Of a stretch of DNA of 62,557 nt, positions 5,379 to 55,080 are shown piece by piece; within the stretch, counting starts at the first letter, position 1, and every line of letters starts with the position of its first letter. The notes under the pieces were generated by a model that ran no database searches, was not told where the DNA came from, and worked only from the letters and a program-made list of their open reading frames with translations. Source of the stretch: Saprospiraceae bacterium (lineage in GTDB: Bacteria > Bacteroidota > Bacteroidia > Chitinophagales > Saprospiraceae); contig JAJCYI010000089.1 in NCBI GenBank assembly GCA_029263015.1, positions 1 to 62,557 on the forward strand, written 5' to 3'. The position numbers were made by a program, and so were the translations under genes.

Positions 5379-5699
5379 TTAAATCTCAATCTTCGAAGCA
5401 TCCCGGCTCTGATGATATATCGCCAACATCTCAACCTGATTCGGGAAATACTTAAATACCAGTACATACTTTTTCCGAAATATAATTCTGCGGTAAAATT
5501 TGTCCTTTGTTCTTTTCCATTTCCACTCAGGATGGTGGGTAGGGTAGGTAATAATCTTTGTCAAAATAAAATTTTCTAATTCTAAAACGAATTCATGGCC
5601 TTTGCCAGTTTGGACATTTTCGTCCAGCCAGTCTCGGATTGATTTGGTGTTATCTACGAAGCCTTTGTTGTAAATTAGGAGCGCACTGGCGGGTTTCAT
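5379..5699 (-). CDS. RelE/ParE-type toxin
   Basis: A 106-residue basic protein of RelE/ParE size and layout. The N-terminal helices (about 15-50) and a strand-rich C-terminus with YRRIIFRKKYVLVFKY and a final RDASKIEI match the ParE/RelE-like plasmid stabilisation fold. It overlaps the upstream antitoxin gene by four bases (5696-5699), the usual translational coupling for type II pairs, with antitoxin first. RelE members cleave mRNA at the ribosome and ParE members poison gyrase; which applies here cannot be told from sequence. The pair lies directly beside the duplicated purL tail, at the edge of the accessory block. Confidence 0.75.
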   Translation of the reverse strand: MKPASALLIYNKGFVDNTKSIRDWLDENVQTGKGHEFVLELENFILTKIITYPTHHPEWKWKRTKDKFYRRIIFRKKYVLVFKYFPNQVEMLAIYHQSRDASKIEI

Positions 5700-5962
5700 A
5701 TTCCGAGAGCTTTTCTAAATTCTTCGGGCGTTACTTTTTCGCTTATCTCCGCCTCATCCACCAATTCCAATAAATCCTTTTCAGAAAGGGGAGCACCTTC
5801 TGTTATGTACTTTTCATAAGAAAAACCGGACTCATTGTTTTTTTTTGGCAAATTGAAATCCAATACTTTCTTCTGCCTGAAAGCATCCAGTATTTTTAAG
5901 ATAAACGCTAATTCAGTCGGTTTTACAAAAAGCTCAACTTTTACACTATTTGATGTTGCCAT
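5696..5962 (-). CDS. Antitoxin partner of the RelE/ParE-type toxin
   Basis: An 88-residue protein directly upstream of the toxin on the same strand, with a four-base overlap. The C-terminal half is acidic (LLELVDEAEISEKVTPEEF), as expected of an antitoxin tail that wraps a basic toxin. I do not recognise the N-terminal DNA-binding fold with certainty; the first residues (SVKVELFVKP) could form a ribbon strand. The assignment rests mainly on gene order, size and overlap. Such antitoxins usually repress their own promoter, which would lie just beyond 5962. Confidence 0.65.
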   Translation of the reverse strand: MATSNSVKVELFVKPTELAFILKILDAFRQKKVLDFNLPKKNNESGFSYEKYITEGAPLSEKDLLELVDEAEISEKVTPEEFRKALGI

Positions 5963-6018: not shown

Positions 6019-6285
6019 CTACTTCCCCTCCAACCACTTCCTCGCATTCAAAAAAGCCTCCACCCAAGGCGAAATATCATCTTTTCTTCCTGCTGGATAA
6101 TTCGCCCAATTCCACTTAAAGATTGATCGCTCAATATGCGGCATGGTCACCAAATGCCTGCCATCCGCACTGGCGAGCATGGCGGTGTTGTAATCGCTGC
6201 CGTTTGGATTGGAAGGGAAGGCATCGTAGCCGTATTTAGCGATGATGTTGTATTGGTCTTCGGGCAGTGGTAATTGGAGTTTTCC
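6019..6285 (-). pseudogene. purL: Duplicated 3' fragment of purL (last ~88 codons)
   Basis: This stretch aligns without gaps to 11729-11995, the 3' end of the intact purL, at an offset of 5710 bases with only scattered substitutions. Its reading frame is fully open and ends in its own TAG stop (purL proper ends in TGA). The translated tail keeps the glutaminase residues of MPHIERSI and the end ARKWLEGK, with about six conservative changes (for example V to I, Y to F, Q to E). The similarity stops abruptly near 6285, 23 bases before the end of the methyltransferase gene. It has no start and is not expected to be expressed. It marks one boundary of the inserted four-gene operon. Confidence 0.92.
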
Positions 6286-6308: not shown

Positions 6309-7895
6309 CTACACTTCATTTTTCCGCAAACGCTTTAAAATTAATTTTTGCCTAATTTTTGAAATTTTTTGAATTTTTCTATTGGAAAGCTTTAATGTGG
6401 AATTCAATATTCTGTAATCATTTTGGGCCAACACATCTTCAATATTTCTTTTCCTTTCAAACGATTTACGATACAAATTGAATTCACTTTTTGTAATTTC
6501 GAAATATGGAATAGCTAACTTCTTGAATTCGCTGGGAACAAGCTCCAATACTCCTCCTCCATAGTATCTCCCCTCAAGTTCAGCAAATGCCAAGGTAAGT
6601 GAGTTGTAAAAAGAATATATCAAACTACTGATGTTGTAGCCATTATTCATGCTAATTTTATATGCCGAATCCGTTACAAAGACATTAGCTGAATTCTTGA
6701 TAATTTTTGGGTATCGGTGACTACGCTTCAAAAAAAACGCTTCCGGTTCATTTGCGACATTAGGCACAACGAACCAGTTCTTTCTCTTTTGACATTTATA
6801 TCTTGCATGAATCTCTTCTCTTTCTCCTATTTCAAGATACTCAAGCACCTTCTCTGAAAATTTACCTGCATCATTGTCTTCGAACTTCAAGAATTTGGAT
6901 GGCAAATTAGACTTGACCAATTGTAGATAATCCTTTTTATCAAATACGACACCGCCATTAACGAACAACCCTTTTTGAACAATAGGAACTGTATATTTTT
7001 CTAATCCGTATTTCTTTTCAACTTCCTCACTAATGATAAAAAATGAATTAGCAGCGGTGACAATTCCTGGTTTTGAGTCACAATAATATTCAATAGGTTT
7101 TAAATCCTCTTTTAAGTTATGCAAAAAAATTAGTTCATCAGAAGATAGTACATGGTGAGTCCATTTTATATTAGAGTGCACCAAAGCTTCATTTTTTTTG
7201 AGGATATAGGTCTGGTTTTCTAATTGAGATTTATCTTTTATGTTTGAATAATACACACCCTTTTCTTCCGAAGATTTATATGCAATAAGAACAAGCGTAT
7301 CCTGCCCTATTGATTCAAAGACTAAATCATCAAATGTGAATATTTCAATTCGCTCAAAGCTATTTTTAAGAAATTCTCTAATTTCTTCTGTAAACTTCAC
7401 TTGGAGTAATTCTAAAGGGAGGACCAATGCGAGAATGCCATTTTCTTTTAGAAGAAAGGTTGACTTTAATAAGAAAGAAGTCCATATATTTTTTATTGAC
7501 TTACTCGACAAACCATTGTCTAAATGTATTTTTTTACATTTTTTTATCTGAGTACTTGTCAATCTATTTCCCTTAATATAGGGTGGATTTCCAATTGCAA
7601 TCGAAAATTTAGAATCCGTTTTAAAATCTAAGAAATCACATTTTCTAAAGGTTGACCCTTTTTTACACCAAATTTTCCTAACCTTTTTCAATTCTTCTTT
7701 CTCAACATCAATTCCCATGATCGAAATTCTGCCAACACCTTGGGTTTCTTTTATAGCTTTTACAAATTTTCCATTTCCTACGCTTGGCTCAAATATGGAT
7801 ATAGTCTTTCCTTTGTATTTAGAAAAAACACGACGAGACATAAACTCCGCCAAATAATCTGGTGTGTAATATGACCCAGTTTCTTTTTTATTCAT
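6309..7895 (-). CDS. N6-adenine DNA methyltransferase (TaqI/Eco57I-like)
   Basis: A 528-residue gamma-type amino-methyltransferase. Motif X-like GSYYTP is at residues 7-12, the AdoMet-binding motif I EPSVGNGKF at 36-44 and the catalytic NPPY at 103-106. The C-terminal ~270 residues look like a TaqI-type target-recognition region (GIVTAANSFF followed by a long variable part and GGGVLELVPSEF). It should methylate adenine in a specific DNA site. There is no obvious fused nuclease domain of the type IIG kind, so any cutting must come from a partner, the HNH protein being the obvious candidate. It is the last gene of the operon, one base after the HNH gene, and is A+T-rich compared with purL. Confidence 0.88.
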   Translation of the reverse strand: MNKKETGSYYTPDYLAEFMSRRVFSKYKGKTISIFEPSVGNGKFVKAIKETQGVGRISIMGIDVEKEELKKVRKIWCKKGSTFRKCDFLDFKTDSKFSIAIGNPPYIKGNRLTSTQIKKCKKIHLDNGLSSKSIKNIWTSFLLKSTFLLKENGILALVLPLELLQVKFTEEIREFLKNSFERIEIFTFDDLVFESIGQDTLVLIAYKSSEEKGVYYSNIKDKSQLENQTYILKKNEALVHSNIKWTHHVLSSDELIFLHNLKEDLKPIEYYCDSKPGIVTAANSFFIISEEVEKKYGLEKYTVPIVQKGLFVNGGVVFDKKDYLQLVKSNLPSKFLKFEDNDAGKFSEKVLEYLEIGEREEIHARYKCQKRKNWFVVPNVANEPEAFFLKRSHRYPKIIKNSANVFVTDSAYKISMNNGYNISSLIYSFYNSLTLAFAELEGRYYGGGVLELVPSEFKKLAIPYFEITKSEFNLYRKSFERKRNIEDVLAQNDYRILNSTLKLSNRKIQKISKIRQKLILKRLRKNEV

Positions 7896-7896
7896 T

Positions 7897-8526
7897 TCAA
7901 AGATTATTATAATAATCCATCAATTCATTATGCAGGAGTACATATTCAAAACTGATTTTTCCTGCATGATTCATTAAGCCGGCATACTCTGGTGAATCTT
8001 TATCTCTTTTTTTCATTTCATTTGCAAAAGCCATAACAAGTTTCCTCCTCTGATTTAACTCCCACAACAATTTAATTGCATTTGCCCTTTCATCAAATTT
8101 AAAGGCAACAGTTGCCTTCCACTTGCCAAGAGGGGTGTTCCACATTATTCCACCATCTTTTGTTCTTTTCAAGTGAGTATCATATTCAATGTTACAAGGG
8201 TCAACAAATCCTTCATTATTAAGGTTGAACACCGATTCTATTTGAGATGGCCATAAAGAAGATTTATTGTTATTGCAAAATTTACAACTATACACCAAAT
8301 TATCATATTGACACAACCCAATAGTACTCCCAATCTTTTTTAGAAAGTCTTTGGGAATAAAATGGTCAACTTCAAAATAAGTGTGCCTAAACCCATCATA
8401 AGAGCCACAATAGGCACAATGATGATGAAAGTCTACTTTCAAATCGTCTTTATGTTTTGACCAATCAACAGTTGGATTCTTGGTCGGAGTGGAGCGCCTC
8501 TGGGGAAGTAAATCTCTTACTTTCAT
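7897..8526 (-). CDS. HNH endonuclease with CxxC zinc finger
   Basis: A 209-residue protein with a clear HNH nuclease core: CAYCG (Cys37, Cys40), EVDHFIPK (catalytic His55), DNLVY (Asn76) and CKFCNNNKSS (Cys81, Cys84). The four cysteines should bind a structural zinc, and the beta-beta-alpha metal fold cuts DNA. A helical C-terminal part of ~110 residues may give target or partner binding. The start overlaps the end of the receiver gene by four bases (8523-8526), and the methyltransferase gene follows after one base, so all are translated from one message. It is the probable restriction or effector nuclease of the module. Confidence 0.88.
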   Translation of the reverse strand: MKVRDLLPQRRSTPTKNPTVDWSKHKDDLKVDFHHHCAYCGSYDGFRHTYFEVDHFIPKDFLKKIGSTIGLCQYDNLVYSCKFCNNNKSSLWPSQIESVFNLNNEGFVDPCNIEYDTHLKRTKDGGIMWNTPLGKWKATVAFKFDERANAIKLLWELNQRRKLVMAFANEMKKRDKDSPEYAGLMNHAGKISFEYVLLHNELMDYYNNL

Positions 8527-9182
8527 TTACCCTTATTCTTTTCAATTAATGATTTCAAAAAGTCTTCGGCTTCTTTTCTTGTCTTTGACAAGCCCTCTAA
8601 TTTCTCAAATGAAATTAACTGCATGGGGGCTTCACGAACTCTGGATTTATCCATGATAAATAACTCTTCTTGCGCCAGCAAAAGGGTGTCTTTTTCTTTT
8701 GCATTTAAACCTCCACTTGCTTCCTTATCTAATAAATTACCAATTAGTCGTTTCTTCTTAGCAACATAATTTCGATACTGCTCAATACTTTTTTCAAGCA
8801 CTTTGACAAATCTTTCTATACTTATCTCATCTTCAAAAACTACATCTTTGTCAAAAATAATTTTCCAATCTTCAATAAATGGTTCGGCCTGATCAACTTT
8901 ATTGGTAAATATTATATGAGGAAATTTTGGTTTAGTTTCATAAATCTCACTCTCAACTTCTTCTCCATTGAAAGACACTACATTCGTATCATTTAACTTA
9001 TAGTCAATCATCAACAAATCGATAGCTGATTTGTAAACCTGATTCATTAAACCATCTAAAGTCATCCCTTTTGTAAACTTATAGCCAATCACATCAAATC
9101 CGTAATTCTTCAATTTTCGACGATATGTTTTGACTTGTGAATCATCCTCGTCAATGTAACCAATTGTGTATTTTGCCTTCAT
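8523..9182 (-). CDS. Receiver (response-regulator) protein with helical C-terminal region
   Basis: A 219-residue protein. Residues 1-~120 fit a receiver domain: acidic pocket DEDD at 11-14, phospho-acceptor Asp60 in LLMIDYKL, Thr93 in IIFTNK and Lys112 in FDKD. Residues ~120-219 are predicted helical and charged, and I recognise no DNA-binding output domain. It follows the histidine-kinase-like ATPase by one base and precedes the HNH gene with a four-base overlap, so the kinase is the likely phospho-donor and the nuclease or methyltransferase the likely target. The receiver is divergent, with a longer-than-usual loop after the phospho-acceptor strand (NDTNVVSFNGEEVESEI). The role as a switch on the nuclease is inference. 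Confidence 0.78.
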   Translation of the reverse strand: MKAKYTIGYIDEDDSQVKTYRRKLKNYGFDVIGYKFTKGMTLDGLMNQVYKSAIDLLMIDYKLNDTNVVSFNGEEVESEIYETKPKFPHIIFTNKVDQAEPFIEDWKIIFDKDVVFEDEISIERFVKVLEKSIEQYRNYVAKKKRLIGNLLDKEASGGLNAKEKDTLLLAQEELFIMDKSRVREAPMQLISFEKLEGLSKTRKEAEDFLKSLIEKNKGK

Positions 9183-9183
9183 C

Positions 9184-11628
9184 TTATTGTTTTTTTCTTA
9201 TTGGAAAAGAGAGTTTTAACGAAAAGCCTTCTTGTGGTTCTAAAATTTGAACATCTCCATTATAACCTTCTATTACATTTTTTATTAAATACATGCCCAT
9301 TCCTGTTCCAATATCATTACCCTTCCTATCTCGTTTCGTTGTTGTAAAGGGCAAAAATATTTCTTCTTTATCTTCAAAAACCTTAGAAAGCCCAACCCCA
9401 TTGTCTGAATAAATTATATCAATGGTAAAATCTGACAATTCGAATTCGATAGTGATATTTCTATCTTGTACTGCTTTCAGATTACTAAATGAATCAATAG
9501 AGTTATTGATTAGGTTTGTAAAGACAGTATCCATATCCATCTCAAACGCACGAAAGTCATAATCCGCCCCTTTTATCCTATCAGCTGTTTTCAAACGAAT
9601 ATCTCTTGTTTTAAAAATTTTGTTCCACCTTCTCCTTAATCCTTTGAAATAAGCTGAAAAATCTAATTTACTTCTTTTTCTTTTGTCTTTTCGGATAGCG
9701 GATTGGGAATACTCGACCCAATGTTTTATTTTATCACTGTTTTCTTTCAAAAGTTCAATAATATCCAATCCATCATCGAAATCTTCTTTGTGTTTACTTG
9801 ATTTTTTTATGCTGTCGGGGATTAACTTTTTATATATACCTTCCAATAAATTAATTTCGGTTGCGTTATTTTTCACTTCCTTTAGTTCATGGCCAAAAGA
9901 AGAAACGATTAATCCCAAACTGGCCAAAGCCCTTACTTGAACAATTTCTTCATTTTCCTTTTGAGAATACTTATCGTCAATTTCTCGAATTGTCTCTTCG
10001 AATGTCTTTTTATACTTTTTCTTTTCTTCTTCTTCTCGCTTCTCTTGAAATAAATCTACTTTTCTTTTCCCATACATCCTTTCTTCCACATTTTTTCTTT
10101 CTTCGACCATCTGTTCAGCAAGCTTTTCGGCTCTTTCCTGAATCTCCTTTTCTTTTGCTCTTGCCTTTTCCTTTTTGAAAAATAAATAGTAAGGATTTAA
10201 AATTTTTGTTCTGTCCAATTCAAATTCATGTATCACCCCAACTATTATTCTTTTGAATGTATCAAAGGCGTCGTTTTCTTGCAAAGCTCCCCTGTCTGAC
10301 TTGTCAACCAACAATGGATTAGTCTTTCTCGATATTGTAATGATCCCTGCTGTTTGCTCAGGCCTAACCCTCCAATCGCCTACTCGTTGCCCTGCTCCAG
10401 CAGGGCTTTGGGCAACTCTTGCACCTAATTTCAACCAGTCATTTGTTGGCTCTCCGTATGGCCTAACTCTAAATGAATCTCGGTAAACTTTGACGCCTCC
10501 AAATCTATCTAAAACTGACTTCCTTTCCGCTCGATTAATTATCTTATAAGGATATCCTTCCTTTTTCGAATTGTAAAATTTAAGATAATAAAAAGTCAAA
10601 CTAAACGAGCCTACATCTTTCAAAAGTTTCCTGTTCGTTCCATTCAAATCCCAGCTGAGAACTTTCTCGATTGATTTTGAATATTTAAATGCTATGGTTT
10701 CTAATGTTTTTAAATTAAAAGGCTTTCGAGAGCCTTTATAAATATGTGAAAACTGCTTCTTTACCAATTTTAAATCCAATTCGTTCCGAGTCATTTCAAA
10801 ATGAACATTGAGACTTTTAGAGTCATAAGTAGCCTTCAGTCGATAATCGTAATCATTAAAAAAAGCCGTTTCAACATTCCCATAATTTCCAATTTCTTGC
10901 AAATGGCTAAAAAAAACTTCAAACTGAATATTGAGTTCTTTAGGTGGAATCAATGCTTCCAAGCTTTTGAAAACTTCATCAATATTTGTCTTATACCATT
11001 CGTCTTTCAGATTAGTGACTTTAATGAATGTTCCATTGATGAAATTAACAGAATTAAGTAATTTTTCAAATTTTGAATGCTTAATTCCAATCGATTCAAT
11101 TAACTTTCTTAGCTTGAAAATTTCTTGCTTTAATTCAGCTTTAATCTCCGATATTGATTTTTCAGCTTCATCAAATTGATTCCAGTCCATCTCCCAATAA
11201 AGTCCAGAATTTTGTTTAGACTTCTTTGAAATTGTCCATAGTTCAGTTTTAAAGCCTAATCTGTCCAACGCAAATCTGCCAATTCCATTCGCCCCAGTTT
11301 TCACCCTTTTATCATCTGAGATAAAATCTTTCTCTTTATTCCCTGTTCCAATTTTCATCCAATGGTCTTCGATGACTTTTTTGGTCATTCCTTCCCCATT
11401 ATCAATGATATAAATATTGCTTTTTTCCTTATTAGGAATAACGACTTTATTCCCTTTCGTATCTTTTTTTATTTTTACTGGTATATCAAAAAATACAAAA
11501 CAGTTTTTTGCATCCGCATCGTATGAATTTTTGATTAATTCAATAATAGCCCCCTCTGGGTTAGAGAAATTTTCTCTGCCCAGTAATTTACCTGCTCTCG
11601 CTGAAACTTTAAAAGGTATTTTGGCCAT
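9184..11628 (-). CDS. Double GHKL protein: MutL/MORC-like ATPase fused to a histidine kinase core
   Basis: Start taken at the ATG at 11628 (814 residues), because MAKIPFKVSARAGKLLGREN opens the conserved domain; the frame is open to 11694. The first GHKL ATPase has an N-box with Glu30 and Asn34 (ELIKNSYDADA), G1 DNGEGM at 76-81 and G2 GANGIGRFA at 112-120, followed by an S5-like middle part with GGVKVYRDSFRVRPYG near 377-392. A charged coiled coil spans ~484-560. Next comes a kinase core: H-box SFGHELKE with His580, a second N-box NLINNSID (705-712), G1 SDNGVG (741-746), F-box FLPFTTTK (758-765) and G2 GTGMGMY (774-780). It should bind ATP at both ends, and His580 is a candidate phosphorylation site. 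It heads the operon, 100 bases after the purL stop. Related GHKL/MORC-like proteins are known beside restriction-modification genes. Confidence 0.85.
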   Translation of the reverse strand: MAKIPFKVSARAGKLLGRENFSNPEGAIIELIKNSYDADAKNCFVFFDIPVKIKKDTKGNKVVIPNKEKSNIYIIDNGEGMTKKVIEDHWMKIGTGNKEKDFISDDKRVKTGANGIGRFALDRLGFKTELWTISKKSKQNSGLYWEMDWNQFDEAEKSISEIKAELKQEIFKLRKLIESIGIKHSKFEKLLNSVNFINGTFIKVTNLKDEWYKTNIDEVFKSLEALIPPKELNIQFEVFFSHLQEIGNYGNVETAFFNDYDYRLKATYDSKSLNVHFEMTRNELDLKLVKKQFSHIYKGSRKPFNLKTLETIAFKYSKSIEKVLSWDLNGTNRKLLKDVGSFSLTFYYLKFYNSKKEGYPYKIINRAERKSVLDRFGGVKVYRDSFRVRPYGEPTNDWLKLGARVAQSPAGAGQRVGDWRVRPEQTAGIITISRKTNPLLVDKSDRGALQENDAFDTFKRIIVGVIHEFELDRTKILNPYYLFFKKEKARAKEKEIQERAEKLAEQMVEERKNVEERMYGKRKVDLFQEKREEEEKKKYKKTFEETIREIDDKYSQKENEEIVQVRALASLGLIVSSFGHELKEVKNNATEINLLEGIYKKLIPDSIKKSSKHKEDFDDGLDIIELLKENSDKIKHWVEYSQSAIRKDKRKRSKLDFSAYFKGLRRRWNKIFKTRDIRLKTADRIKGADYDFRAFEMDMDTVFTNLINNSIDSFSNLKAVQDRNITIEFELSDFTIDIIYSDNGVGLSKVFEDKEEIFLPFTTTKRDRKGNDIGTGMGMYLIKNVIEGYNGDVQILEPQEGFSLKLSFPIRKKQ

Positions 11629-11728: not shown

Positions 11729-14700
11729 TCACTTCCCCTCCAACCACTTCCTCGCATTCAAAAAAGCCTGCACCCAAGGCGAAATATCATCTTTTCTTCT
11801 TGCTGGATAATTAGCCCAATTCCACTTAAAGATTGATCGCTCAATATGCGGCATGGTGACCAAATGCCTGCCATCCGCACTGGCGAGCATGGCGGTGTTG
11901 TAATCGCTGCCGTTTGGATTGGAAGGGTAGGCATTGTAGCCGTATTTAGCAACGATATTGTATTGATCTTCAGGCAGTGGCAGGTGAAATTTTCCCTCGC
12001 CGTGTGAAATCCAGACCCCCATCTGGCAACCTGCAAGGGAGGATAACATGACGGAATTGTTTTCAGGAATCGTTACCGAAGTAAAGGCGCTTTCGTGCTT
12101 GTGGGAGTCGTTGTGCAGCATTTTTGAAGGTACGTCGTGATCAGGATTGATCAGCCCCAACTCGACAAAAAGCTGGCAGCCATTGCAGATGCCCACCGAA
12201 AGTACATCGTCACGACTGAAGAAATTATCAAGCGCCTTTTTCGCTTTTTCATTGTATAAAAACGCCCCAGCCCAGCCTTTGGAAGAACCCAATACATCGG
12301 AATTGGAAAAGCCACCTACCGCGCCAATAAACTGAATGTCTTCCAATGTCTCCCGACCGCTAATCAGGTCGGTCATGTGAACATCTTTGACGTCGAATCC
12401 GGCGAGGTACATGGCATGAGCCATTTCCCGTTCCGAGTTGCTGCCTTTTTCGCGAAGCACTGCTGCTTTCGGGCGTGGCTTCGAGAGGTCAGGGGTGGGT
12501 CGCACACCTATAAATCCAGCAGGAAAGTTATATTTCAACGGCTGGTTTTTGTAATTATCGTAACGCTCCTTCGCTTTGGCAATCCCTGACTGATGCTGAT
12601 CGAGCAGATAAGAAGTCTCGTACCATACATCCCTTAATTCAGGAATTTGGAAATTGTACTTCTCCGTACCATTGGTAATTGCAAGCATTGAATTGAAATG
12701 GACAGAACCAATTTTGCGCACATCGATCTGTGCTTTCTGCAAAATGGTTTCCACAGAATCGTCTTTTGCCTGAAAGATGACGCCGCTGTTTTCAGCAAAT
12801 AATAATTTGACGGAGTCCTGTTCTCCAATACCCGTCAGGTCAATTTCAGCACCCAATTCTGGATCGGCAAAACACATTTCCAATAGGGTAGTTAACATCC
12901 CACCTGCGGAAATGTCATGGCCAGCGAGGATGAGATCAGCTTTGATTAATTCTTGTAGCGTGTCGAATGCACGGGCAAAATAGGTGGCATTCTGAATTGA
13001 AGGAGCTTTTGCACCTATCTTACTTTGTGCTTGCGCAAATGATGAACCGCCCAATTGGTATTCATCTTTTGATAGGTTGATATAATAAATAGCCCCGCCA
13101 CTTCTTTGTAAAACGGGTTCCACTATTCGGGTAATATCGTCGCAATGAGCAGCAGCAGAAATAACTACTGTTCCTGGTGAAATAACTTCCTCGTTAGGGT
13201 ATTTCTGTTTCATAGAAAGAGAATCCTTTCCCGTCGGAACATTGATACCCAGCGCTATGGCAAAATCAGAAATAGCTTCTACCGCTTCGTACAATCGGGC
13301 ATCTTCCCCCTCATTTCGGCAGGGCCACATCCAATTGGCCGACAGGGAAACGGAGCGAAGTCCCTTCTCCAGAGGCGCCCAAACAATATTTGTAAGCGCC
13401 TCAGCTATTGAATTCCTCGAACCAGCTACCGGATCAATCAATCCGCTGATCGGGGAATGCCCGATAGAAGTGGCCAGACCGTTTTCACCATCATAATCCA
13501 GCGCCATTACGCCACAATTATTCAGCGGCAATTGCAGCGGACCAGTGCATTGCTGTTTCGCTACCAATCCCCCCACACAGCGGTCCACTTTGTTGGTCAG
13601 CCAGTCTTTGCAGGCGACTGCCTCTAATCTCAAAACCTCTTTAATGTAGTTGGTTATATGCTCGACCTGATATTCTACGGCTTCATACTTCCTGTTCAGG
13701 TTTCGATCTTGCATGATGGTTTTAGGGGAACTGCCAAACATGTCCCCTAATGCCAAATCCATTGGCCGGGCTCCGTCAGATGCAGATTGGAAAGTGAAGC
13801 GCATGTCGCCCGTTACCTCTCCAACTTCATAAATTGGCGCACGTTCCCGAGCTGCAATTTTTTGCAGGGTAGCCATGTTTTTAGCTGAAATGACCAGTCC
13901 CATTCTTTCCTGAGATTCGTTACCGATCACCTCTTTGGCAGATAAGGTGGGGTCCCCGACTGGCAATTTGTCAAGGTCGATTTTTCCCCCGGTTTCTTCA
14001 ACCAATTCAGATAGGCAGTTTAGGTGTCCGCCTGCACCGTGGTCATGAATCGAAACAATTAAACCCTCTTCACTTTCAACGACTCCCCGTATCGCATTGG
14101 CTACTCTTTTCTGCATTTCAGGATTGGAGCGTTGTACTGCATTTAGCTCAATACCTGCACTGAAGGCACCAGTATCGGCAGAGGAAACGGCAGCGCCGCC
14201 CATGCCGATCCGGTAGTTGTCGCCACCCATGACAACAATTTTATCCCCCGTTTGAGGAACATCTTTCAGAGCCTGGTCGGCTTTCCCGTAACCAATTCCT
14301 CCGGCCTGCATGATTACTTTGTCATAACCAAGTTTGCGACCTGCTTCTGAGTGTTCGAAAGTCAACAGGGAGCCAGCAATGAGAGGTTGGCCAAACTTAT
14401 TCCCAAAATCAGAAGCGCCATTGGAGGCTTTGATCAAAATATCCATTGGCGTTTGGTACAACCATGGACGAGCGGCCATTTTCTGCTCCCATGGACGATT
14501 TTCTTGCAGGCGGGAATAAGCAGTCATATATACCGCTGTTCCTGCCAGCGGGAGTGAACCTTTTCCGCCAGCGAGCCGGTCACGGATTTCTCCCCCAGAG
14601 CCAGTTGCTGCTCCGTTAAAGGGTTCTACCGTAGTTGGGAAATTATGGGTTTCAGCTTTTAGTGACAGGACTGAGTCAAAAGATTTCTTTTCATAAAAAT

Positions 14701-15391
14701 CAGGTTTGTCGGCGCTTTTGGGAGAAAATTGAGTGAGTTTTGGGCCGTGTACAAAAGCCACATTGTCTTTATAGGCTGATACAATATCGTTGGGATTTTT
14801 TTTAGAAGTCTTTTTGATCATTTGAAAAAGGGAATTACTCATTTCCTCTCCATCGATCACAAAAGTACCGTTGAATATCTTGTGTCGGCAGTGCTCGCTA
14901 TTGACTTGAGAAAAACCGAATACCTCGGAATCCGTGAGTTTGCGGCCAATCTTTCTAGCAACTTCTTCCAAGTAATGAATTTCCTCTTCACTCAATGAAA
15001 GTCCTTCTTTACCATTAAATTCAGCTATATCCCCAATCTCTAAAATTGGAGCGGGTTCAATATCAATAGTAAATATTTCCTGGTGGAGCTGCATATATTT
15101 TTGCGAGAGCATAGGGTCAAAATGATCGTTCTCAGCTGATACGCTCGTAAACTCCTCAATTCGCTCAATGCCATTGATCGCCATGTTTTGAGTGATTTCA
15201 ACCGCATTGGTACTCCAGGGGGTAATCATGGCAGCACGGGGGCCGACGAATGGACCTGCCACCGAAAGACGCTCTATTTGTGACTGATCGCCAAAGAGCC
15301 ACACCAGCTTTTGGATGTCCTCAACAGGCAGGGTTTGCTCAACTTGAACAGCGAATACTTTTTGGAAAGGATTGCCAAAAAATAAGATCAT
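11729..15391 (-). CDS. purL: Phosphoribosylformylglycinamidine synthase (large, one-chain form)
   Basis: A 1220-residue enzyme of purine synthesis that converts FGAR, ATP and glutamine to FGAM. The ATG at 15391 (MILFFGNPFQ) is chosen over the upstream frame extension because conserved sequence begins there. The order fits the large PurL: PurS-like N-terminus, linker, two ATP-grasp-like AIRS halves with KAETHNFPTTVEPFNGAATG and SIHDHGAGG, and a C-terminal class I glutaminase with Cys in GICNGCQLF and the His/Glu pair in MPHIERSI. Length is slightly below the proteobacterial form (about 1295). The last ~88 codons are duplicated at 6019-6285, with a four-gene operon in between. The gene is complete and should be functional. 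Confidence 0.97.
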   Translation of the reverse strand: MILFFGNPFQKVFAVQVEQTLPVEDIQKLVWLFGDQSQIERLSVAGPFVGPRAAMITPWSTNAVEITQNMAINGIERIEEFTSVSAENDHFDPMLSQKYMQLHQEIFTIDIEPAPILEIGDIAEFNGKEGLSLSEEEIHYLEEVARKIGRKLTDSEVFGFSQVNSEHCRHKIFNGTFVIDGEEMSNSLFQMIKKTSKKNPNDIVSAYKDNVAFVHGPKLTQFSPKSADKPDFYEKKSFDSVLSLKAETHNFPTTVEPFNGAATGSGGEIRDRLAGGKGSLPLAGTAVYMTAYSRLQENRPWEQKMAARPWLYQTPMDILIKASNGASDFGNKFGQPLIAGSLLTFEHSEAGRKLGYDKVIMQAGGIGYGKADQALKDVPQTGDKIVVMGGDNYRIGMGGAAVSSADTGAFSAGIELNAVQRSNPEMQKRVANAIRGVVESEEGLIVSIHDHGAGGHLNCLSELVEETGGKIDLDKLPVGDPTLSAKEVIGNESQERMGLVISAKNMATLQKIAARERAPIYEVGEVTGDMRFTFQSASDGARPMDLALGDMFGSSPKTIMQDRNLNRKYEAVEYQVEHITNYIKEVLRLEAVACKDWLTNKVDRCVGGLVAKQQCTGPLQLPLNNCGVMALDYDGENGLATSIGHSPISGLIDPVAGSRNSIAEALTNIVWAPLEKGLRSVSLSANWMWPCRNEGEDARLYEAVEAISDFAIALGINVPTGKDSLSMKQKYPNEEVISPGTVVISAAAHCDDITRIVEPVLQRSGGAIYYINLSKDEYQLGGSSFAQAQSKIGAKAPSIQNATYFARAFDTLQELIKADLILAGHDISAGGMLTTLLEMCFADPELGAEIDLTGIGEQDSVKLLFAENSGVIFQAKDDSVETILQKAQIDVRKIGSVHFNSMLAITNGTEKYNFQIPELRDVWYETSYLLDQHQSGIAKAKERYDNYKNQPLKYNFPAGFIGVRPTPDLSKPRPKAAVLREKGSNSEREMAHAMYLAGFDVKDVHMTDLISGRETLEDIQFIGAVGGFSNSDVLGSSKGWAGAFLYNEKAKKALDNFFSRDDVLSVGICNGCQLFVELGLINPDHDVPSKMLHNDSHKHESAFTSVTIPENNSVMLSSLAGCQMGVWISHGEGKFHLPLPEDQYNIVAKYGYNAYPSNPNGSDYNTAMLASADGRHLVTMPHIERSIFKWNWANYPARRKDDISPWVQAFLNARKWLEGK

Positions 15392-15778
15392 GGTAAAGTG
15401 TAGTTTGCTTTTGTGATATGAAGGGGCAAAGCTATCTATTTTGAGGGACTGGGGGAGGGAAATGGAGTGGCAGTTTTTTTTGGGAGGGAAATATTGTTTG
15501 TTGATGCTGGACAACGTCCGATTCCTATTTAACGAGGTCTTTGACCTCTACCAATCCGCTCAAAAACCACGTAGGCGGCCTCCCGCCCACGGTAGGGAAT
15601 TAGTTCGACTATTTATGATTGAATAGAGAAATCATTTGATACTGGATGCTGTCTGAAAAAAGTGAAATTAGGCAAAGCCATGAAAGATGAGTCGTTTGCT
15701 GAATTCATTTATCCTTGAAAATTGGGAATCTTGTTCCCAATTTTCAAGGATAAATGGTAAATTTGTTTAAAATTCGCA
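15392..15778. other. Divergent intergenic region with strong hairpin
   Basis: No gene is seen here. It holds the divergent promoters of purL and the ATPase gene. At 15707-15755 there is a hairpin with 22-base perfect arms (atttatccttgaaaattggg...) and a 5-base loop, 24 bases before the plus-strand start, so it may affect translation of that gene. The stretch near 15530-15600 (aacgaggtc...gacctc; cacgtaggcggcctcccgcc) looks like a worn repeat of the family 2 kind. Confidence 0.5.
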
Positions 15779-48251: not shown

Positions 48252-50033
48252 ATGAAGTTATCAATTCGTCTTTTTCCGTCTCTCCTTTTCCTTTTCATTG
48301 CTTTTGTTGGAAATGCTCAAGATATTCCTGAATACACCGTACAGGTGGGGCAATTCATCAATCCAAAAACTGCTGATTTCGAGCGGTTGTCTCCATTGGG
48401 TTTTGTCTATTCAACCAAGCGATCAGATAACCATACAGATATTTTTATCGGAGGGTTTGCTTCCGATGAAGCCGCCAATAAAGTGGTTGAGAAACTAAAA
48501 GGCCAAGGTTACAACAATGCTTTTGTCTCAAAATTGAACACCGAAGCTGGCCACAGCCAAACAGTCGTCCAGTTGGCCACCAAGACTTCCGGCGATAAAA
48601 TCAACTGGAACCATTACATGCAGGCAGGTTCCCTGTTTGTGTTGTTGAATGGCAAGGAATTGAAAATACTGTTGGGGGGATTTGCAGATTTGGAGGCAGC
48701 AAAGTCCCGTTTGGTTACATTAAAGGAATTGGGTTTTAGCGATGCTTTTGTGAAAAACGTCAACAATGCCCTTTTGCATGAAATCACAGCATTTGAGGCT
48801 GGCGGAATGATGAAAAAACCTTTGATCCCGCTTGATTTCACCGAAAAAGAAGAAATGGTCGCAAAGTCAGAAACGACTAAGCCCGATGCTGTTCCGACCA
48901 CTTATGACGATATAACGATCATTGTTCCCAAAACAAAGGTGGAGGACCAACAGGTCGTACTTACAGCAAAAGGAGGCGATGCCACCAAAGCAAAAAAAGC
49001 TGTTAACCAGGAACCTGCTTTCGACTTCCAAGCTAAAATGCCTGAGATCAGGGCCAAGGTGAAGAGGACTTCCGCGCTTGAATTGCAGCGAGTGCTCAAA
49101 GCCGAGGGTACTTATAAAAGCTCCCTGGACGGTTACTATGGCAAAGGCACCCGTGCAGGGTACGACCTTGCCCTGCGCACCAATCGCCAGATGCAGAAAT
49201 ACAGCATACTTGCCAAATATTTGCCTATTCCTGCTGCCGAAACCCACGTAGGCGCTTTACAGAGCAGTATCAACAACCTGTGGCAAGACCCAGAAACGGC
49301 ACTTGATGTTTTGAAAAAATCAAAAGCTCCAATCGCCAAGACTTACCGTGCTTACTTCATATATGTCACCGAGGGCGCTGGGTTCGAAGTGAATACCTTG
49401 ATGAACGAATCCATCAACGAAGCATTCAGCAGGGATGTGCGTGCGAGCCTTCCCTCGTTCGATCCATCCTCTACTTATGATTACCGTGACCTCGGCCAAT
49501 TACTATCCCACATGCGTTACGTCCACGAAGCATCCAATGAAGGCATTGCTGCACCATGCTGGTTGTTCCGCAGGCACCCTGGCACTGCCCTGAAATCTTT
49601 TGGTGAAATTGACGGCATAAAATCCAACCTGAACATGCAAACTTGTGGTGGATTTTGGGAATGGCAGGAAGTACAGTTGCTCCACGCAATTGCCTCCGAC
49701 CTCTGCACCAGCGGCCATACCAGCGAGGGCAAAATCGCAAATAGCCAATCCGAACTGGCCCGCCTCTACCTCACGCCCAAACTAATGGGATGGAAAGACC
49801 GGAAAGCGCTTTTGGACTGGAACGAGACCGTTTGGAAAGGCATTGATGGCTGGGCCATCCGTGATCCACTTTTGGCGGAAATCGGCACTGCCCTGAAAAT
49901 TTCTTATTTCCAGACACAGGTGCTGCTCGAAGACTTTTACATGGACGAAGGCTTTGATGAAAAGGAATCAAAAGGACTGGCACTGGCAGCGTTGAAAGCG
50001 TTGGTGGGGCATCATTTTGATCGGTTTATTTGA
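48252..50033 (+). CDS. Exported SPOR-repeat protein with peptidoglycan-binding-like region
   Basis: A 593-residue protein with a signal peptide (...FLFIAFVGNAQ). Two SPOR-like segments lie at ~26-95 (YTVQVGQFINP..., IFIGGFASDEAANKVVEKLKGQGYNNAFV) and ~110-165 (FVLLNGKELKILLGGFADLEAAKSRL...). A peptidoglycan-binding-like helical unit is at ~275-310 (ELQRVLKAEGTYKSSLDGYYGKGT). The C-terminal ~270 residues are helical and unrecognised. SPOR domains bind denuded glycan at division sites, so a role in the cell wall is likely. It ends at a strong hairpin. Confidence 0.78.
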   Translation: MKLSIRLFPSLLFLFIAFVGNAQDIPEYTVQVGQFINPKTADFERLSPLGFVYSTKRSDNHTDIFIGGFASDEAANKVVEKLKGQGYNNAFVSKLNTEAGHSQTVVQLATKTSGDKINWNHYMQAGSLFVLLNGKELKILLGGFADLEAAKSRLVTLKELGFSDAFVKNVNNALLHEITAFEAGGMMKKPLIPLDFTEKEEMVAKSETTKPDAVPTTYDDITIIVPKTKVEDQQVVLTAKGGDATKAKKAVNQEPAFDFQAKMPEIRAKVKRTSALELQRVLKAEGTYKSSLDGYYGKGTRAGYDLALRTNRQMQKYSILAKYLPIPAAETHVGALQSSINNLWQDPETALDVLKKSKAPIAKTYRAYFIYVTEGAGFEVNTLMNESINEAFSRDVRASLPSFDPSSTYDYRDLGQLLSHMRYVHEASNEGIAAPCWLFRRHPGTALKSFGEIDGIKSNLNMQTCGGFWEWQEVQLLHAIASDLCTSGHTSEGKIANSQSELARLYLTPKLMGWKDRKALLDWNETVWKGIDGWAIRDPLLAEIGTALKISYFQTQVLLEDFYMDEGFDEKESKGLALAALKALVGHHFDRFI

Positions 50034-50067
50034 TTTGAGGGTCAGAGAAGAGGAGTCAGGGGTCAGG

Positions 50068-50120
50068 ATATAAAAGGCATACCGAATACTCAGATGGAGT
50101 GTTCGGTATGCCTTTTATAT
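50068..50120. terminator. Strong hairpin after the SPOR gene
   Basis: 19-base perfect arms (atataaaaggcataccgaa and its complement) with a 15-base loop, 35 bases after the stop codon. Probably the terminator, though no long T-run follows. Confidence 0.7.
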
Positions 50121-50291
50121 TGGACTAAACTTGCAACAACGAGTGCTTTCGCTCAGGAGTCAAATATTGAAATCAGAACAATAATCAATAAAATAAATAA
50201 CAGGATTGAACCTGTATTCGCCAAATTTATAGTCCAGCCAAGCGCCTTAAACCGTTTTGGTGGAAATAGTCTTTTATCCTCCTTATTATAA

Positions 50292-50398
50292 TAGACATCT
50301 TTCCTAAATAAATTTAAGGCATGGAAACAAGGATATTTTTGTCAGACGAGGCATTTTTTGAAGGAATAGCCGAAGCTATTGCTGAAAAAAAATGTCTA
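50292..50398. repeat. Family 4 element, internally deleted copy
   Basis: Starts with tagacatctttcctaaataa and follows the reverse complement of 46085-46246 almost exactly for ~100 bases, then jumps to the terminal tgtcta. The ORF METRIFLSDEAFFEGIAEA is kept, here running on past the element end. Confidence 0.85.
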
Positions 50399-50580
50399 AT
50401 AGAAGACTCCAAATTTCCAATTGGAAGGATCCTGGTGCCACTCATCATATTTGTTGTTAGATTCTGCCATTTTGATTTTAGTTTTTGATCACATAAAATC
50501 TTGTTTGCCTTTTTCTATGCAGCAGTCCTTATTTGCTCTTCCAAAAATGGTACATGGATAACGTTTCGAGGGATTCCAAG

Positions 50581-50780
50581 GCCCCCGGCAGGGCAGGGCT
50601 GTTAAGTGCTAAGGGTTTTAATTTAAAATGTAAAATGATAAATAATAAATGTAAAAATCAGACACACGTACCTACCTGATGGCGAGTATTTTACGTACAG
50701 GCCATTTTTACATTTTAAATTCATCATTTTAAATTTTAAATTTAAAAACGAAAACTTAACAGCCCTTCCCTGCCGGGGGC
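50581..50780. repeat. 200-bp nested inverted repeat
   Basis: 27-base arms starting gcccccggcaggg and ending ccctgccgggggc, with one mismatch, enclose A+T-rich inner arms and a core with acgtacctacctgatggcg that recalls family 2. It has T-rich flanks (ttctttttt) at 50781-50790. No ORF. Confidence 0.8.
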
Positions 50781-51228
50781 TTTCTTTTTTTGGCGCACCG
50801 CCAATTTTTTAACGTCTCAATGGAGACGTGAGGGAAAGTGTTTCGCCTTTTTAATCTTTGTGAATTGGTTTTCTGCTTGTTATATTTGTCCAGCGCACTG
50901 GGTTGCGTTTTGATAGTTTACTTGAACTTGATGGTATGGTCCATTTATGATGGAGGGTTGGAGACAAGGCTGGTATTTTGATTTGAAAAAAGGACAGTTT
51001 AGGTGATGTGGGAATTCACGCAATATTGCGTGTGACAGTAGTTAAGCCCTATTAAAAGTAAAACTCAAATGAAATTCGCCAGTGGTTTGAATAGAATTAT
51101 TCAGATCAATCGAAAAAACTAATTTAAAGACATATAAGCATCTTCCATTTTTGGTAGGATTATAAAATATGAACAGCGAAAACTAATTATGGAAAGCATA
51201 CAGCAAAATTTCTAATTTTAAAAAAGAT
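50781..51228. other. Intergenic region before the cassette-like block
   Basis: No gene is seen. A 16-base perfect palindrome (cacgcaatattgcgtg) lies at 51017-51032. From about 51050 the sequence turns clearly A+T-rich, as in the following genes. Confidence 0.4.
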
Positions 51229-51471
51229 ATGTGTGTATATCTTCAATCAAAAATGAAAGAAATGAAAAAAAGAATTTTTATCGGCTTCGGTTGTGAAGTG
51301 ATTGAAAAACTAAATAAAATTATCGTTAGATATGATTCTGGTGGTTCTGCAAGTCAAATGATGGAGAATGAAATTACCTCTGAAGAAGTGGAAAAAATTA
51401 AATTAAGTGAGCAAGATGCATATGAAGTAATATTGAATGCTCGCAAACGTGATAATAACAAGAAACTTTAG
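51229..51471 (+). CDS. Small protein of unknown function (about 72-80 residues)
   Basis: An 80-residue frame; the ATG at 51253 (MKEMKKRIFIGFGCEVIEKL) is a likelier start than the one at 51229. The sequence has a plausible strand-helix pattern (RIFIGFGCEVIEKLNKIIVRYD, then an acidic EITSEEVEKIKLSEQDAYEVI helix). I do not recognise the family. It is followed 65 bases later by an attC-like hairpin on the same strand, as in an integron cassette. Confidence 0.5.
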   Translation: MCVYLQSKMKEMKKRIFIGFGCEVIEKLNKIIVRYDSGGSASQMMENEITSEEVEKIKLSEQDAYEVILNARKRDNNKKL

Positions 51472-51536
51472 CTTTGAAAATTGAGTAAGCAAGCAATGTG
51501 AGCTTATAGAATGGATAATTGAAATTTAAAAACAAA

Positions 51537-51601
51537 GCCTAACAATGTGCATGTCGATTAGTCGGGCTAAACGCCCGCCCACCGTATGCACTTACGTTGG
51601 C
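51537..51601 (+). repeat. attC-like imperfect hairpin 1
   Basis: GCCTAAC at the left and ACGTTGGC at the right, with inner pairs GTGCAT / ATGCAC and GGGC / GCCC around a taaac loop. This imperfect, bulged stem with RYYYAAC-like and GTTRRRY-like ends resembles integron recombination sites, though the right core (GTTGGCA) is one position off the consensus. The remaining gap to 51793 holds no gene. Confidence 0.55.
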
Positions 51602-51793
51602 ATTATCAGGATCACACAAAATAAATAAATAGACTTGTTTCACTATGATAATCAATTGATTACAAAATTGAATTTAAATTTATTGAGTAATAGAGTTTTT
51701 GCGCCAGTTTTTAGATTAAATTAAAAACAAGTATATGCTGATAATCAATCAGTTATGGCAAAACATGTCTAATAAAAAACAAAAAATAAAAAC

Positions 51794-53011
51794 ATGCTAA
51801 AAATAAAATTTATCATCACTCTAATTTTAGGAATTCAGATTGCTGGCTATGGTCAATGGGAAGAAAAAAATATAATGACGACTTCGACTTTGACTTGCGT
51901 TGATTTCTTAAACGACGAAATAGGATTCGTAATAGGGAGCAATAAGATTTACAAGACTGAAAATGGAGGTGACACTTGGGTGATAAGCTATACTGCAAAC
52001 AATTTAGTCGCTTATGAAGATATATTTATCATCGGAAATGATGAAATTATTGCAGTTGGAATGGACTTAAACTCAAATCAATCTATAATTACAAAATCAA
52101 CAAACGGTGGAACAGATTGGGCAGAGATATTTATTACAAATTCTTCATTTTTGAAATCAGTATTTTTCACCTCATCAAATATTGGGTATTGTTCTGGAGG
52201 CGGAGGAACAATTTTAAAATCCACAGATTCGGGAGATACTTGGCAGGAATTAAACTCTGGAACTGGAGCAAATCTGCAATCAATTTATTTTGTTAATGAT
52301 TTGGTCGGAATTGCCGTAGGAGGAAGTCCAGCAAATGCAATAATCCTCAAAACGCAAGACGGAGGTGCAAATTGGAATCAAATAAATTCACCATCAAATA
52401 ATAATCTCCAATCTGCCTTTTTTACGAATCAAGAAACAGGATATGTAGTCGGCTGGAATGGGGAAATTATAAAAACAGAAGATTGCGGTAATTCTTGGAC
52501 AATCCAAAGTTCCGTTGCTATGAATGGTAATTTAGAAGTGATATTTACTGATGACAATACTGGCTATATCGTTGGAGGAGCAATGAACGAGTCCTTAATT
52601 CAAAAAACATCGAATGGAGGTGATTTATGGGAAGATATAAGCCCTCAAATTTCGGAAGGGTTAGTTTGCATTCATTTTCCATCGATCAATATCGGATATG
52701 CAGTTGGGGGCAATGGAACAGTTGTAAAGACTGAATCAGGTGGAATTATAACTTCCACAAATGATATTGAAATACTCGATAAATTCAGCGTTTTTCCTAA
52801 TCCAGTAATCGAAACTTTAAATGTTCAATCAGAGGCAAGTATCCAAATAAGAAGAATAAATATTTATGATGCCAATGGAAGAATAATTAAAGAGGTGCAG
52901 CCAAATTCTGAAAATTCTGAAATTGATTTTTCCGACTTGGAATCGAATGTCTACTATTTAGAGATTCATTCAGATAATATGAAACGAATAAAGAAGATAG
53001 TGAAAAAATGA
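51794..53011 (+). CDS. YCF48/sialidase-like propeller protein with T9SS sorting domain
   Basis: A 405-residue secreted protein with a signal peptide (...GIQIAGYGQ). About six repeats of the form S-x-D-x-G-x-x-W with preceding GYxxGxxGTILKS strands (for example ILKSTDSGDTWQELNSG, ILKTQDGGANWNQINS) form a propeller of the YCF48/sialidase BNR type. It ends in a T9SS type A sorting domain (FSVFPNPVIETLNV...KRIKKIVKK). No catalytic residues are evident. The gene is A+T-rich and flanked by two attC-like hairpins, so it has the form of a single-gene cassette with its own start region. Confidence 0.82.
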   Translation: MLKIKFIITLILGIQIAGYGQWEEKNIMTTSTLTCVDFLNDEIGFVIGSNKIYKTENGGDTWVISYTANNLVAYEDIFIIGNDEIIAVGMDLNSNQSIITKSTNGGTDWAEIFITNSSFLKSVFFTSSNIGYCSGGGGTILKSTDSGDTWQELNSGTGANLQSIYFVNDLVGIAVGGSPANAIILKTQDGGANWNQINSPSNNNLQSAFFTNQETGYVVGWNGEIIKTEDCGNSWTIQSSVAMNGNLEVIFTDDNTGYIVGGAMNESLIQKTSNGGDLWEDISPQISEGLVCIHFPSINIGYAVGGNGTVVKTESGGIITSTNDIEILDKFSVFPNPVIETLNVQSEASIQIRRINIYDANGRIIKEVQPNSENSEIDFSDLESNVYYLEIHSDNMKRIKKIVKK

Positions 53012-53012
53012 A

Positions 53013-53083
53013 AACGGCCTATAGCAAAACATACAACAGGTATGCCCAGCAAAACTGGTCACGCCGTTTATGCACGAGCCGTT
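53013..53083 (+). repeat. attC-like imperfect hairpin 2
   Basis: AACGGC at the left and GCCGTT at the right, with inner imperfect pairs (cata...tatg and ccag / ctgg) over 71 bases. It begins two bases after the preceding stop codon, which is the usual place of an attC site in a cassette. The open frame of the next gene runs through it without a good ATG. Confidence 0.5.
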
Positions 53084-53116
53084 CTTAAATTTAAATTAAA
53101 TCGAATCCAAAATAAA

Positions 53117-53965: not shown

Positions 53966-54066
53966 CTTTGGTTATTTAATTTCATTTGAAATTCCACTGG
54001 TGCATTGAATGCTTTAAATTAATGGCAGACGAATTAAGGACCTCAAGTTTGTTAAACAAAATAAAC

Positions 54067-54507: not shown

Positions 54508-54528
54508 TAAACAACCACAATAAAATTA

Positions 54529-54999: not shown

Positions 55000-55080
55000 T
55001 AGAGAATTTAATGTACACGATAAATTCTGTCGAATTAGTTTTTCCCTCAGCCATTAACCACAATTAAATAGTATAATACA

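Follow-up and report, generated by a model that had tools for sequence, protein, structure and literature searches.

Proteins combining HATPase_c_3, HEF_HK (PF19191) and HATPase_c domains are encoded beside Response_reg_2 (PF19192) proteins near restriction genes, and a linkage of 91.6% between HEF_HK and Response_reg_2 is reported for 644 regions (Bellieny-Rabelo et al. 2021, PMC8011034). According to that report, the neighbours are most often cytosine-5 methylase genes, and Vsr, HNH_2 and N6/N4 methylase genes also occur; a link to MORC proteins is proposed there, and control of restriction by signalling is offered as speculation. ParaMORC families have been described in restriction operons, where HNH genes may accompany those for paraMORC1 (Iyer et al. 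2008, PMC2292703), and the GHKL-Shedu protein VcSduA defends against phage and needs both its ATPase and its nuclease residues for this (PMC12137116). Here, a four-gene cassette from a Saprospiraceae bacterium (assembly GCA_029263015.1) is compared with these systems. The whole stretch of DNA analysed, 62,557 nucleotides (nt) of contig JAJCYI010000089.1, is referred to as the window. The cassette (positions 6309–11628, minus strand) carries genes for a putative histidine kinase (P0001), a receiver protein (P0002), an HNH nuclease (P0003) and an N6-adenine DNA methyltransferase (P0004). On balance, it is probably a mobile anti-phage restriction module in which the nuclease is controlled by a His-Asp phosphorelay.

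The genes are tightly packed, with 1 nt between the kinase and receiver genes, a 4-nt overlap between the receiver and HNH genes, and 1 nt between the HNH and methyltransferase genes. A preliminary description of this DNA had listed four open reading frames (ORFs) with these spacings on one strand, and all were found on the minus strand; His580 of the kinase, Asp60, Thr93 and Lys112 of the receiver, and His55 of the HNH protein are also at the positions it gave. The same description proposed a module of four parts whose kinase and receiver are both intact; this part stands, and the module is conserved. It also regarded a kinase together with a receiver as unusual for restriction-modification modules, a part that does not stand as put, since similar pairs beside restriction-modification genes were published in 2021 (PMC8011034), though the branch represented here falls largely outside their Pfam models. 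A limited search of the open-licence PMC literature found no named system with this set of four genes.

P0001 was searched against 395 genomes of the phylum, and an alignment of five kinases was used to scan species genomes, from which the best 80 of 334 relatives were kept, and IMG/VR (44 loci). The locus counts therefore describe the closer part of the family. The window, 20 genome stretches and the 124 scanned loci together gave 145 stretches, and a kinase ORF, required to exceed 100 bits and 450 amino acids (aa), was found in 137 of them. The other eight (L050, L080, L083, L086, L101, L163, L169 and L172) include one relative, L080, that was left out although tblastn matches the whole kinase (35%). 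Kinases of at least 250 bits, a cut-off of our own, were defined as clade 1 (62 of the 137). Eleven of these rows were dropped as duplicate, truncated or split, namely two from the same genome as another row (L062 and L090), four taken as near-identical to another row (L104, L139, L140 and L141), three cut by contig ends (L059, L066 and L144), and two with the kinase in two ORFs (L073 and L082), which left 51 non-redundant loci. In four of the 51 (L089, L093, L095 and L097), the receiver was missed by the first five-sequence profile and was assigned by position and alignment.

The four-gene order is kept in all of the closest relatives (G057, G025, G226 and G249, with kinase identities of 66, 41, 41 and 37%, respectively), and the fourth gene of G249 encodes a different Eco57I-type methyltransferase. 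The order kinase-receiver-HNH was found in all 51 clade-1 loci, which come from six or more phyla. In each, the kinase gene is followed by an ORF of 166–262 aa at a spacing of −113 to +24 nt, and this by an ORF that matches the HNH profile at a spacing of −41 to +17 nt. A gene of methyltransferase size abuts this core in 49 loci, downstream in 34 and upstream in 15, and was not seen in the remaining two (L091 and L094). All 34 downstream products match Eco57I; of the 15 upstream products, 13 match N6_Mtase and nine match Eco57I. An NPPY or NPPF motif is present in all 49. As judged by record titles, the taxa include Desulfobacterales (Thermodesulfobacteriota), Kiritimatiellales (Kiritimatiellota), Pirellulales (Planctomycetota) and a TM6 bacterium, with the caveat that several source records are metagenome bins whose contigs may be misassigned. 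Further record titles name members of the phyla Bacteroidota, Pseudomonadota and Bacillota. Plasmids of Bacteroides finegoldii and Salipiger profundus carry the annotated order sensor histidine kinase, receiver-size hypothetical protein, HNH and N-6 methylase. Co-occurrence of the genes elsewhere, on which the earlier proposal depended, was thus found for the three-gene core in every locus and for an abutting N6-type methyltransferase gene in 49 of 51, and chance adjacency was rejected given the constancy of the order.

Loss of the H-box or receiver residues in homologues was also looked for and was not seen in any of the 51 loci. His580 of the kinase, Asp60 of the receiver, and His55, Asn76 and Asn85 of the HNH protein are invariant in the 51 loci. 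Receiver position 11 is Asp in 48 and Glu in three, position 12 is acidic throughout, position 93 is Thr in 49 and Ser in two, and position 112 is Lys in 47 and Arg in four. Equally invariant are Glu30, Asn34, Asp76, Gly78, Gly80, Gly112, Gly115 and Gly117 of the first ATP site of the kinase, and Asn705, Asn709, Gly744, Gly774, Gly776 and Gly778 of the second. The HNH cysteines co-vary, with all four present in 42 loci and the second of each pair replaced together by Thr or Val in the other nine. A decayed kinase or a pseudo-receiver was rejected, as neither His580 nor Asp60 is lost in these 51.

P0001 matches the Pfam families HATPase_c_3 in its N-terminal part (6e-19) and HATPase_c in its C-terminal part (2e-16), P0003 matches HNH (3e-7), and P0004 matches M_Eco57I_C (5e-42) and Eco57I (4e-13). 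The match of P0002 to the receiver family PF00072 is weak (E 0.006; 17.2 bits, where the cut-off is 30.2), and its structure was therefore modelled. The model (predicted local distance difference test, pLDDT, 89.5; predicted TM-score, pTM, 0.77) has a receiver core followed by helices at residues 119–157, 161–177 and 192–217. In a Foldseek comparison with the PDB, it gave 133 matches at E≤1e-3; among the 50 matches listed, nearly all have titles that name a response regulator or receiver domain, and the TM-score by target length reaches 0.76. As modelled, P0002 has a receiver fold, and no DNA-binding output domain was found in it with Pfam.

The model of P0001 (pLDDT 84.1, pTM 0.79) comprises a GHKL domain, a transducer-like middle part, a long coiled coil and a C-terminal ATP-binding domain. 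His580 is placed at the start of a helix (579–589 and 591–602), with a second helix at 614–643. Foldseek matches fell into two groups, MORC2, MORC3, SMCHD1 and TRAP1 (~500–570 columns) on the N-terminal side, and the kinases ZraS and HK853 (~250 columns) on the C-terminal side. Their TM-scores are modest (0.38–0.63 by target length) and root-mean-square deviations large (7–22 Å); such values are to be expected where an alignment spans several distinct domains of a long model, and the matches are evidence of domain identity and not of a common overall shape. From its model, we read P0001 as a fusion of a MORC-like ATPase with the core of a histidine kinase. The parts of a phosphorelay are present: P0001 has the phospho-His helix and an ATP-binding domain, and P0002 has a receiver fold that keeps its catalytic residues.

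In PADLOC, P0004 is matched best by the type II methyltransferase model MTase_II (5e-148, almost full length). Compared by profile, its family comes closest, among solved proteins, to M.BseCI and two further site-specific adenine methyltransferases. P0001 and P0002 matched none of the PADLOC 2.0.0 models at E≤1. For one relative (L085), the kinase was matched in PADLOC solely by a type II restriction enzyme model and MzaB, and the receiver had no match.

Co-divergence of the four proteins was assessed by Spearman correlation of pairwise divergences in the 34 loci with a downstream methyltransferase gene, using 500 permutations. The kinase, receiver and HNH proteins diverge together (rho 0.80 for kinase-receiver, 0.76 for kinase-HNH and 0.72 for receiver-HNH; p 0.002 each, the lowest value attainable). 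Correlations with the methyltransferase were 0.12 for the kinase (p 0.10), 0.07 for the receiver (p 0.19) and −0.04 for the HNH protein (p 0.68). In the methyltransferase subtype of the window (24 loci), the kinase-receiver rho is 0.78 and the HNH-methyltransferase rho −0.08; in the other 10 loci, kinase-receiver rho is again 0.78, kinase-methyltransferase 0.38 (p 0.11) and HNH-methyltransferase 0.21. Individual pairs of loci show the same independence in both directions: L056 and L088 share 79% identity in the methyltransferase, and 28, 18 and 17% in the kinase, receiver and HNH proteins, respectively, and L067 and L070 share 59% in the kinase and 19% in the methyltransferase. Species history alone cannot explain the contrast, because all four genes sit in the same genomes, and shared species history as the whole cause of the co-divergence was rejected since the methyltransferase of the same genome does not follow. 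Judged by these divergences, METHYLTRANSFERASE is the putative swapped module, in that the methyltransferase hardly tracks the kinase-receiver-HNH core. We infer that the kinase, receiver and HNH protein work as a unit and that specificity moves with the methyltransferase. As the methyltransferase appears to be swapped between conserved cores, it is the more probable source of specificity than the HNH nuclease, in the manner of type I or BREX-like systems; the largely independent history of the methyltransferase argues against a simple matched restriction/modification pair.

The same correlations bear on a different role for the signalling proteins, in which the kinase and receiver would hold the HNH nuclease off until the DNA of a new host has been methylated, and so would protect the host on entry without any sensing of infection. 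Mobile cargo needs such a delay, and the joint inheritance of kinase, receiver and HNH protein is what would be expected of a nuclease and its brake. However, a nuclease and methyltransferase that form a matched pair should co-diverge, which they do not, either overall or in the subtype of the window, and this explanation is considered unlikely, although it fares best among the alternatives to a phosphorelay that responds to infection.

Comparison with the published HEF_HK pairs shows a common plan, a protein with HATPase_c_3, an H-box and HATPase_c that adjoins a receiver and restriction-modification genes. In P0001 and in all 51 clade-1 kinases, the N-terminal ATPase domain is HATPase_c_3 and the C-terminal one HATPase_c. 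The usual methylase reported with the HEF_HK pairs is a cytosine-5 enzyme and the receiver protein given as an example has 600 aa (PMC8011034), whereas an N6-adenine methyltransferase, a receiver of 219 aa and an HNH protein are fixed parts of the present module. PF19191 gave no match to P0001 at E≤1, none to the 51 clade-1 kinases at E≤0.1 and none in the genome of the window; PF19192 likewise gave no match to P0002 at E≤1 and none in this genome, and matched two of the 51 clade-1 receivers at E≤0.1. Assignment of the window pair to HEF_HK/Response_reg_2 was rejected, as P0001 and P0002 match neither Pfam model; restriction-type genes do adjoin the pair, but the methyltransferase is of the Eco57I/N6 type and not a cytosine-5 enzyme. 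The receiver of L095 lies just above the Response_reg_2 cut-off (27.3 against 27 bits), and there is therefore probably no sharp boundary between clade 1 and the HEF_HK/Response_reg_2 families.

A locus with strong matches to both PF19191 and PF19192 (L230) encodes a kinase of 992 aa, a receiver protein of 532 aa, and a 365-aa protein that looks by eye like a cytosine methylase. The locus is matched in three stretches by the kinase profile of the window family (3e-31 to 2e-20, nine-protein set), and the receiver, HNH and methyltransferase profiles of that family found nothing there. Clade 2, the relatives below the 250-bit cut-off, is intermediate between clade 1 and loci of this type. Of 30 genes after the receiver in clade 2, 15 match the metallo-beta-lactamase family (Lactamase_B) and three match HhH-GPD; the family search took in 67 of the 69 ORFs at the receiver position and 30 of the 36 ORFs that come next. 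By these matches, the effector slot after the receiver seems exchangeable. In a sister group (L047, L049, L052, L112, L113, L114, L117, L120–L123, L127, L148, L154 and L156), the product of the gene after the receiver aligns as a metallo-beta-lactamase-fold protein in place of the HNH; the count of 15 Lactamase_B matches is for the 30 scanned genes as a set. The genome of the window also holds a second, distant system on contig C10 (L051, 8296–12770), with a cytosine-5 methylase, a HATPase_c_3/HATPase_c protein and a 311-aa receiver protein.

Other described systems share parts of the module. As in paraMORC families, an N-terminal GHKL ATPase with an S5-like domain is found near methylases and, for paraMORC1, HNH endonucleases; the account of these families mentions no receiver, unlike the window module (PMC2292703). 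GHKL-Shedu and the window module have in common a GHKL ATPase for which control of a phage-defence nuclease is proposed, and GHKL-Shedu is described as a single protein with a PD-(D/E)xK nuclease, with no kinase, receiver or methyltransferase in the description (PMC12137116). P0003 is PtuB-like and so resembles the HNH proteins of Septu and retrons: its best PADLOC match is PtuB (1e-13). It falls below the NCBIfam PtuB cut-off (19.4 of 150 bits) and gave no match to PDB sequences at E≤0.1, and no PtuA match was found with PADLOC among the other genes of the operon. Detocs is a phage defence system that uses two-component-like proteins, as does the window module. To our knowledge, its effector is not an HNH nuclease and it includes no methyltransferase, unlike the window module. 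HATPase and REC are among the domains of predicted, not validated, defence systems shown in Fig. 6F of PMC13092281, and these systems could include the present module.

The cassette has a guanine-plus-cytosine (GC) content of 33–35%, as compared with 43% and 47% in the adjoining 2-kb windows, and was found in one of 14 genomes of the genus, that of the window (1272 bits; best match in the other 13, 85 bits). A direct repeat of 265 nt (94% identical), which corresponds to the 3′ end of purL, borders it on both sides, and none of the four cassette genes encodes an integrase. The purL tail was searched in 60 relatives and gave a match in 19, with more than one match in three of these, including the genome of the window. 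Downstream of purL, two small ORFs lie between two purL-tail fragments in L201, and purL-tail fragments with no convincing gene between them were seen in L202. The window copy looks foreign, and the 3′ end of purL seems to have served repeatedly as an insertion point in this genus. Flanking repeats were looked for in the 45 clade-1 loci that have 1 kb or more on each side of the module: direct repeats occur in four (the window, L036, L054 and L077) and an inverted pair in one (L072), with no insertion rule common to them. In L036 and L077, repeats of ~80–160 nt on both sides of the operon may be an array or insertion scars. Beyond the detached purL-tail copy of the window, overlapping ORFs of 106 and 88 aa (5379–5962, minus strand) resemble by eye a RelE/ParE-type toxin and antitoxin.

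Some distant relatives of the module lie in prophages. The gpA–gpQ interval of P2-like phages is a hotspot of anti-phage systems, and a second hotspot lies between cI and the integrase gene in Vibrionaceae prophages (PMC9122126); the module positions in L138 and L139 match these two hotspots. In the prophage-like contig L138, the module is located between an origin-nicking gene (phrog_91) and a portal gene (phrog_68), beyond which are terminase, scaffold and capsid genes. In L139, it lies between integrase and repressor genes; the integrase is 98.6% identical to that of Vibrio phage 10N.237.312.G08_PE003, and the other flank matches phage repressors. The same interval of that Vibrio phage holds four genes, three of which carry notes naming Rst_3HP, which we take to be the three-gene defence system of the hotspot study. 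Tail genes are found near the module in L134 and a replication-initiation gene in L133. These contexts fit a role of the family in phage defence. When viral contigs were scanned with the receiver alone, no relative was found, and in a phage collection three records match the kinase, none over 80% of its length. In the P2-like Escherichia phage PhiR44_1 (L219, 5001–8049), a gene annotated as ParaMORC3 adjoins a Dcm gene between GpA and GpQ.

For a phosphorelay-controlled restriction module, the following scheme can be proposed. The methyltransferase would mark host DNA at its own site, and the MORC-like domain of the kinase would respond to DNA that is foreign or lacks this mark, or else to the methyltransferase on such DNA. 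ATP-driven closure of this domain may alter the fused kinase through the coiled coil, whereupon His580 would hand a phosphate to Asp60. The receiver, with no Pfam DNA-binding domain and with a long helical tail, would act on the HNH protein by contact, most likely switching it on, and the activated nuclease would cut foreign DNA or kill the infected cell. Gating of the HNH nuclease by phosphorylation appears to be the best explanation for the module.

Several findings weigh against this scheme. A search of the ORFs in the 145 stretches revealed no fusion of receiver and HNH, and the argument for their contact therefore comes from gene order and co-divergence alone. Kinase residue 581 is non-acidic in three of the 51 loci (acidic in 48), and Asp742 of the second ATP site is replaced by Asn in three (kept in 48). 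Among the dropped rows, L082 has a split kinase with neither receiver nor HNH seen, and no HNH was seen in L090. Confidence in the P0001 model is low just before His580 (pLDDT <50 at 571–578) and moderate around the helices. Within the methyltransferase subtype of the window, the kinase-methyltransferase correlation is weak but not nil (rho 0.31, p 0.027). The relatives in defence slots share ~30% identity or less with the kinase of the window and are not close relatives, so that the prophage loci inform on the family and not directly on the copy in the window.

The MORC-like N-terminal side of P0001 would also suit a kinase that acts as a MORC/paraMORC-like DNA-clamp ATPase and loads or activates the HNH nuclease directly, with the kinase part and receiver as structural adaptors and no phosphotransfer. 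The dependence of VcSduA on both ATPase and nuclease residues (PMC12137116) and the possible co-occurrence of paraMORC1 with HNH genes (PMC2292703) are in line with such a role. However, retention of His580, Asp60, the acidic pair, Thr/Ser and Lys/Arg in all 51 loci is hard to explain without phosphotransfer, which makes direct loading improbable. Control of the expression of restriction or other host genes by an ordinary two-component system, for which all the parts are present and which recalls the published speculation on signalling control of restriction (PMC8011034), is less probable still, as P0002 has no Pfam-detectable DNA-binding output domain and a tail modelled as long helices, and HNH always adjoins the receiver in the 51 loci.

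Table 1. Features of the cassette and its borders in the window.
Feature	Window coordinates	Strand	Size or residues	Remarks
P0001, predicted MORC-like ATPase/histidine kinase chimera	9184..11628	minus	814 aa	
P0001 GHKL-1	11125-11559		residues 24-168	
P0001 coiled coil			residues 453-575	
P0001 His580	codon 9889-9891			phospho-acceptor candidate
P0001 C-terminal ATP-binding domain	9199-9537		residues 698-810	
P0002, predicted stand-alone receiver	8523..9182	minus	219 aa	
P0002 Asp11/Glu12, Asp60, Thr93, Lys112	codon 9003-9005 (Asp60)			long helical tail 119-217
P0003, HNH nuclease, PtuB-like	7897..8526	minus	209 aa	
P0003 His55, Asn76, Asn85	codon 8362-8364 (His55)			zinc cysteines 37/40/81/84
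P0004, Eco57I-type N6-adenine DNA methyltransferase	6309..7895	minus	528 aa	
P0004 NPPY	7578-7589		residues 103-106	
Detached copy of purL end	6021..6285	minus	last 88 codons	94% identical to intact end; left border of cassette
Intact purL 3′ end	11731..11995	minus		right border of cassette
Intact purL gene	11729-15514		1261 aa	

Elsewhere in the window, a second stretch of low GC content (34–36%) lies at 50001–56000, where the ORFs resemble by eye a repeat protein with a sorting signal, a TPR-like protein, an acetyltransferase and an S41-type peptidase.

A fuller version of the phosphorelay interpretation can be put forward tentatively. Recognition of self and non-self would be converted by phosphotransfer into the decision of a nuclease, with a MORC clamp-kinase, a receiver switch on the HNH protein, and interchangeable N6-adenine methyltransferases that set the specificity. 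If so, swapping a single methyltransferase gene would retarget the same signalling-nuclease core, and DNA cleavage by a restriction module would be gated directly by a phosphorelay, a type of signalling known mainly for the control of transcription and behaviour. The MORC-kinase fusion would then be a simple system for what MORC-like ATPases sense on DNA, with an output readable as phosphorylation. Given the conserved residues and the contexts in phage slots, a small number of point mutants would suffice to test the idea.

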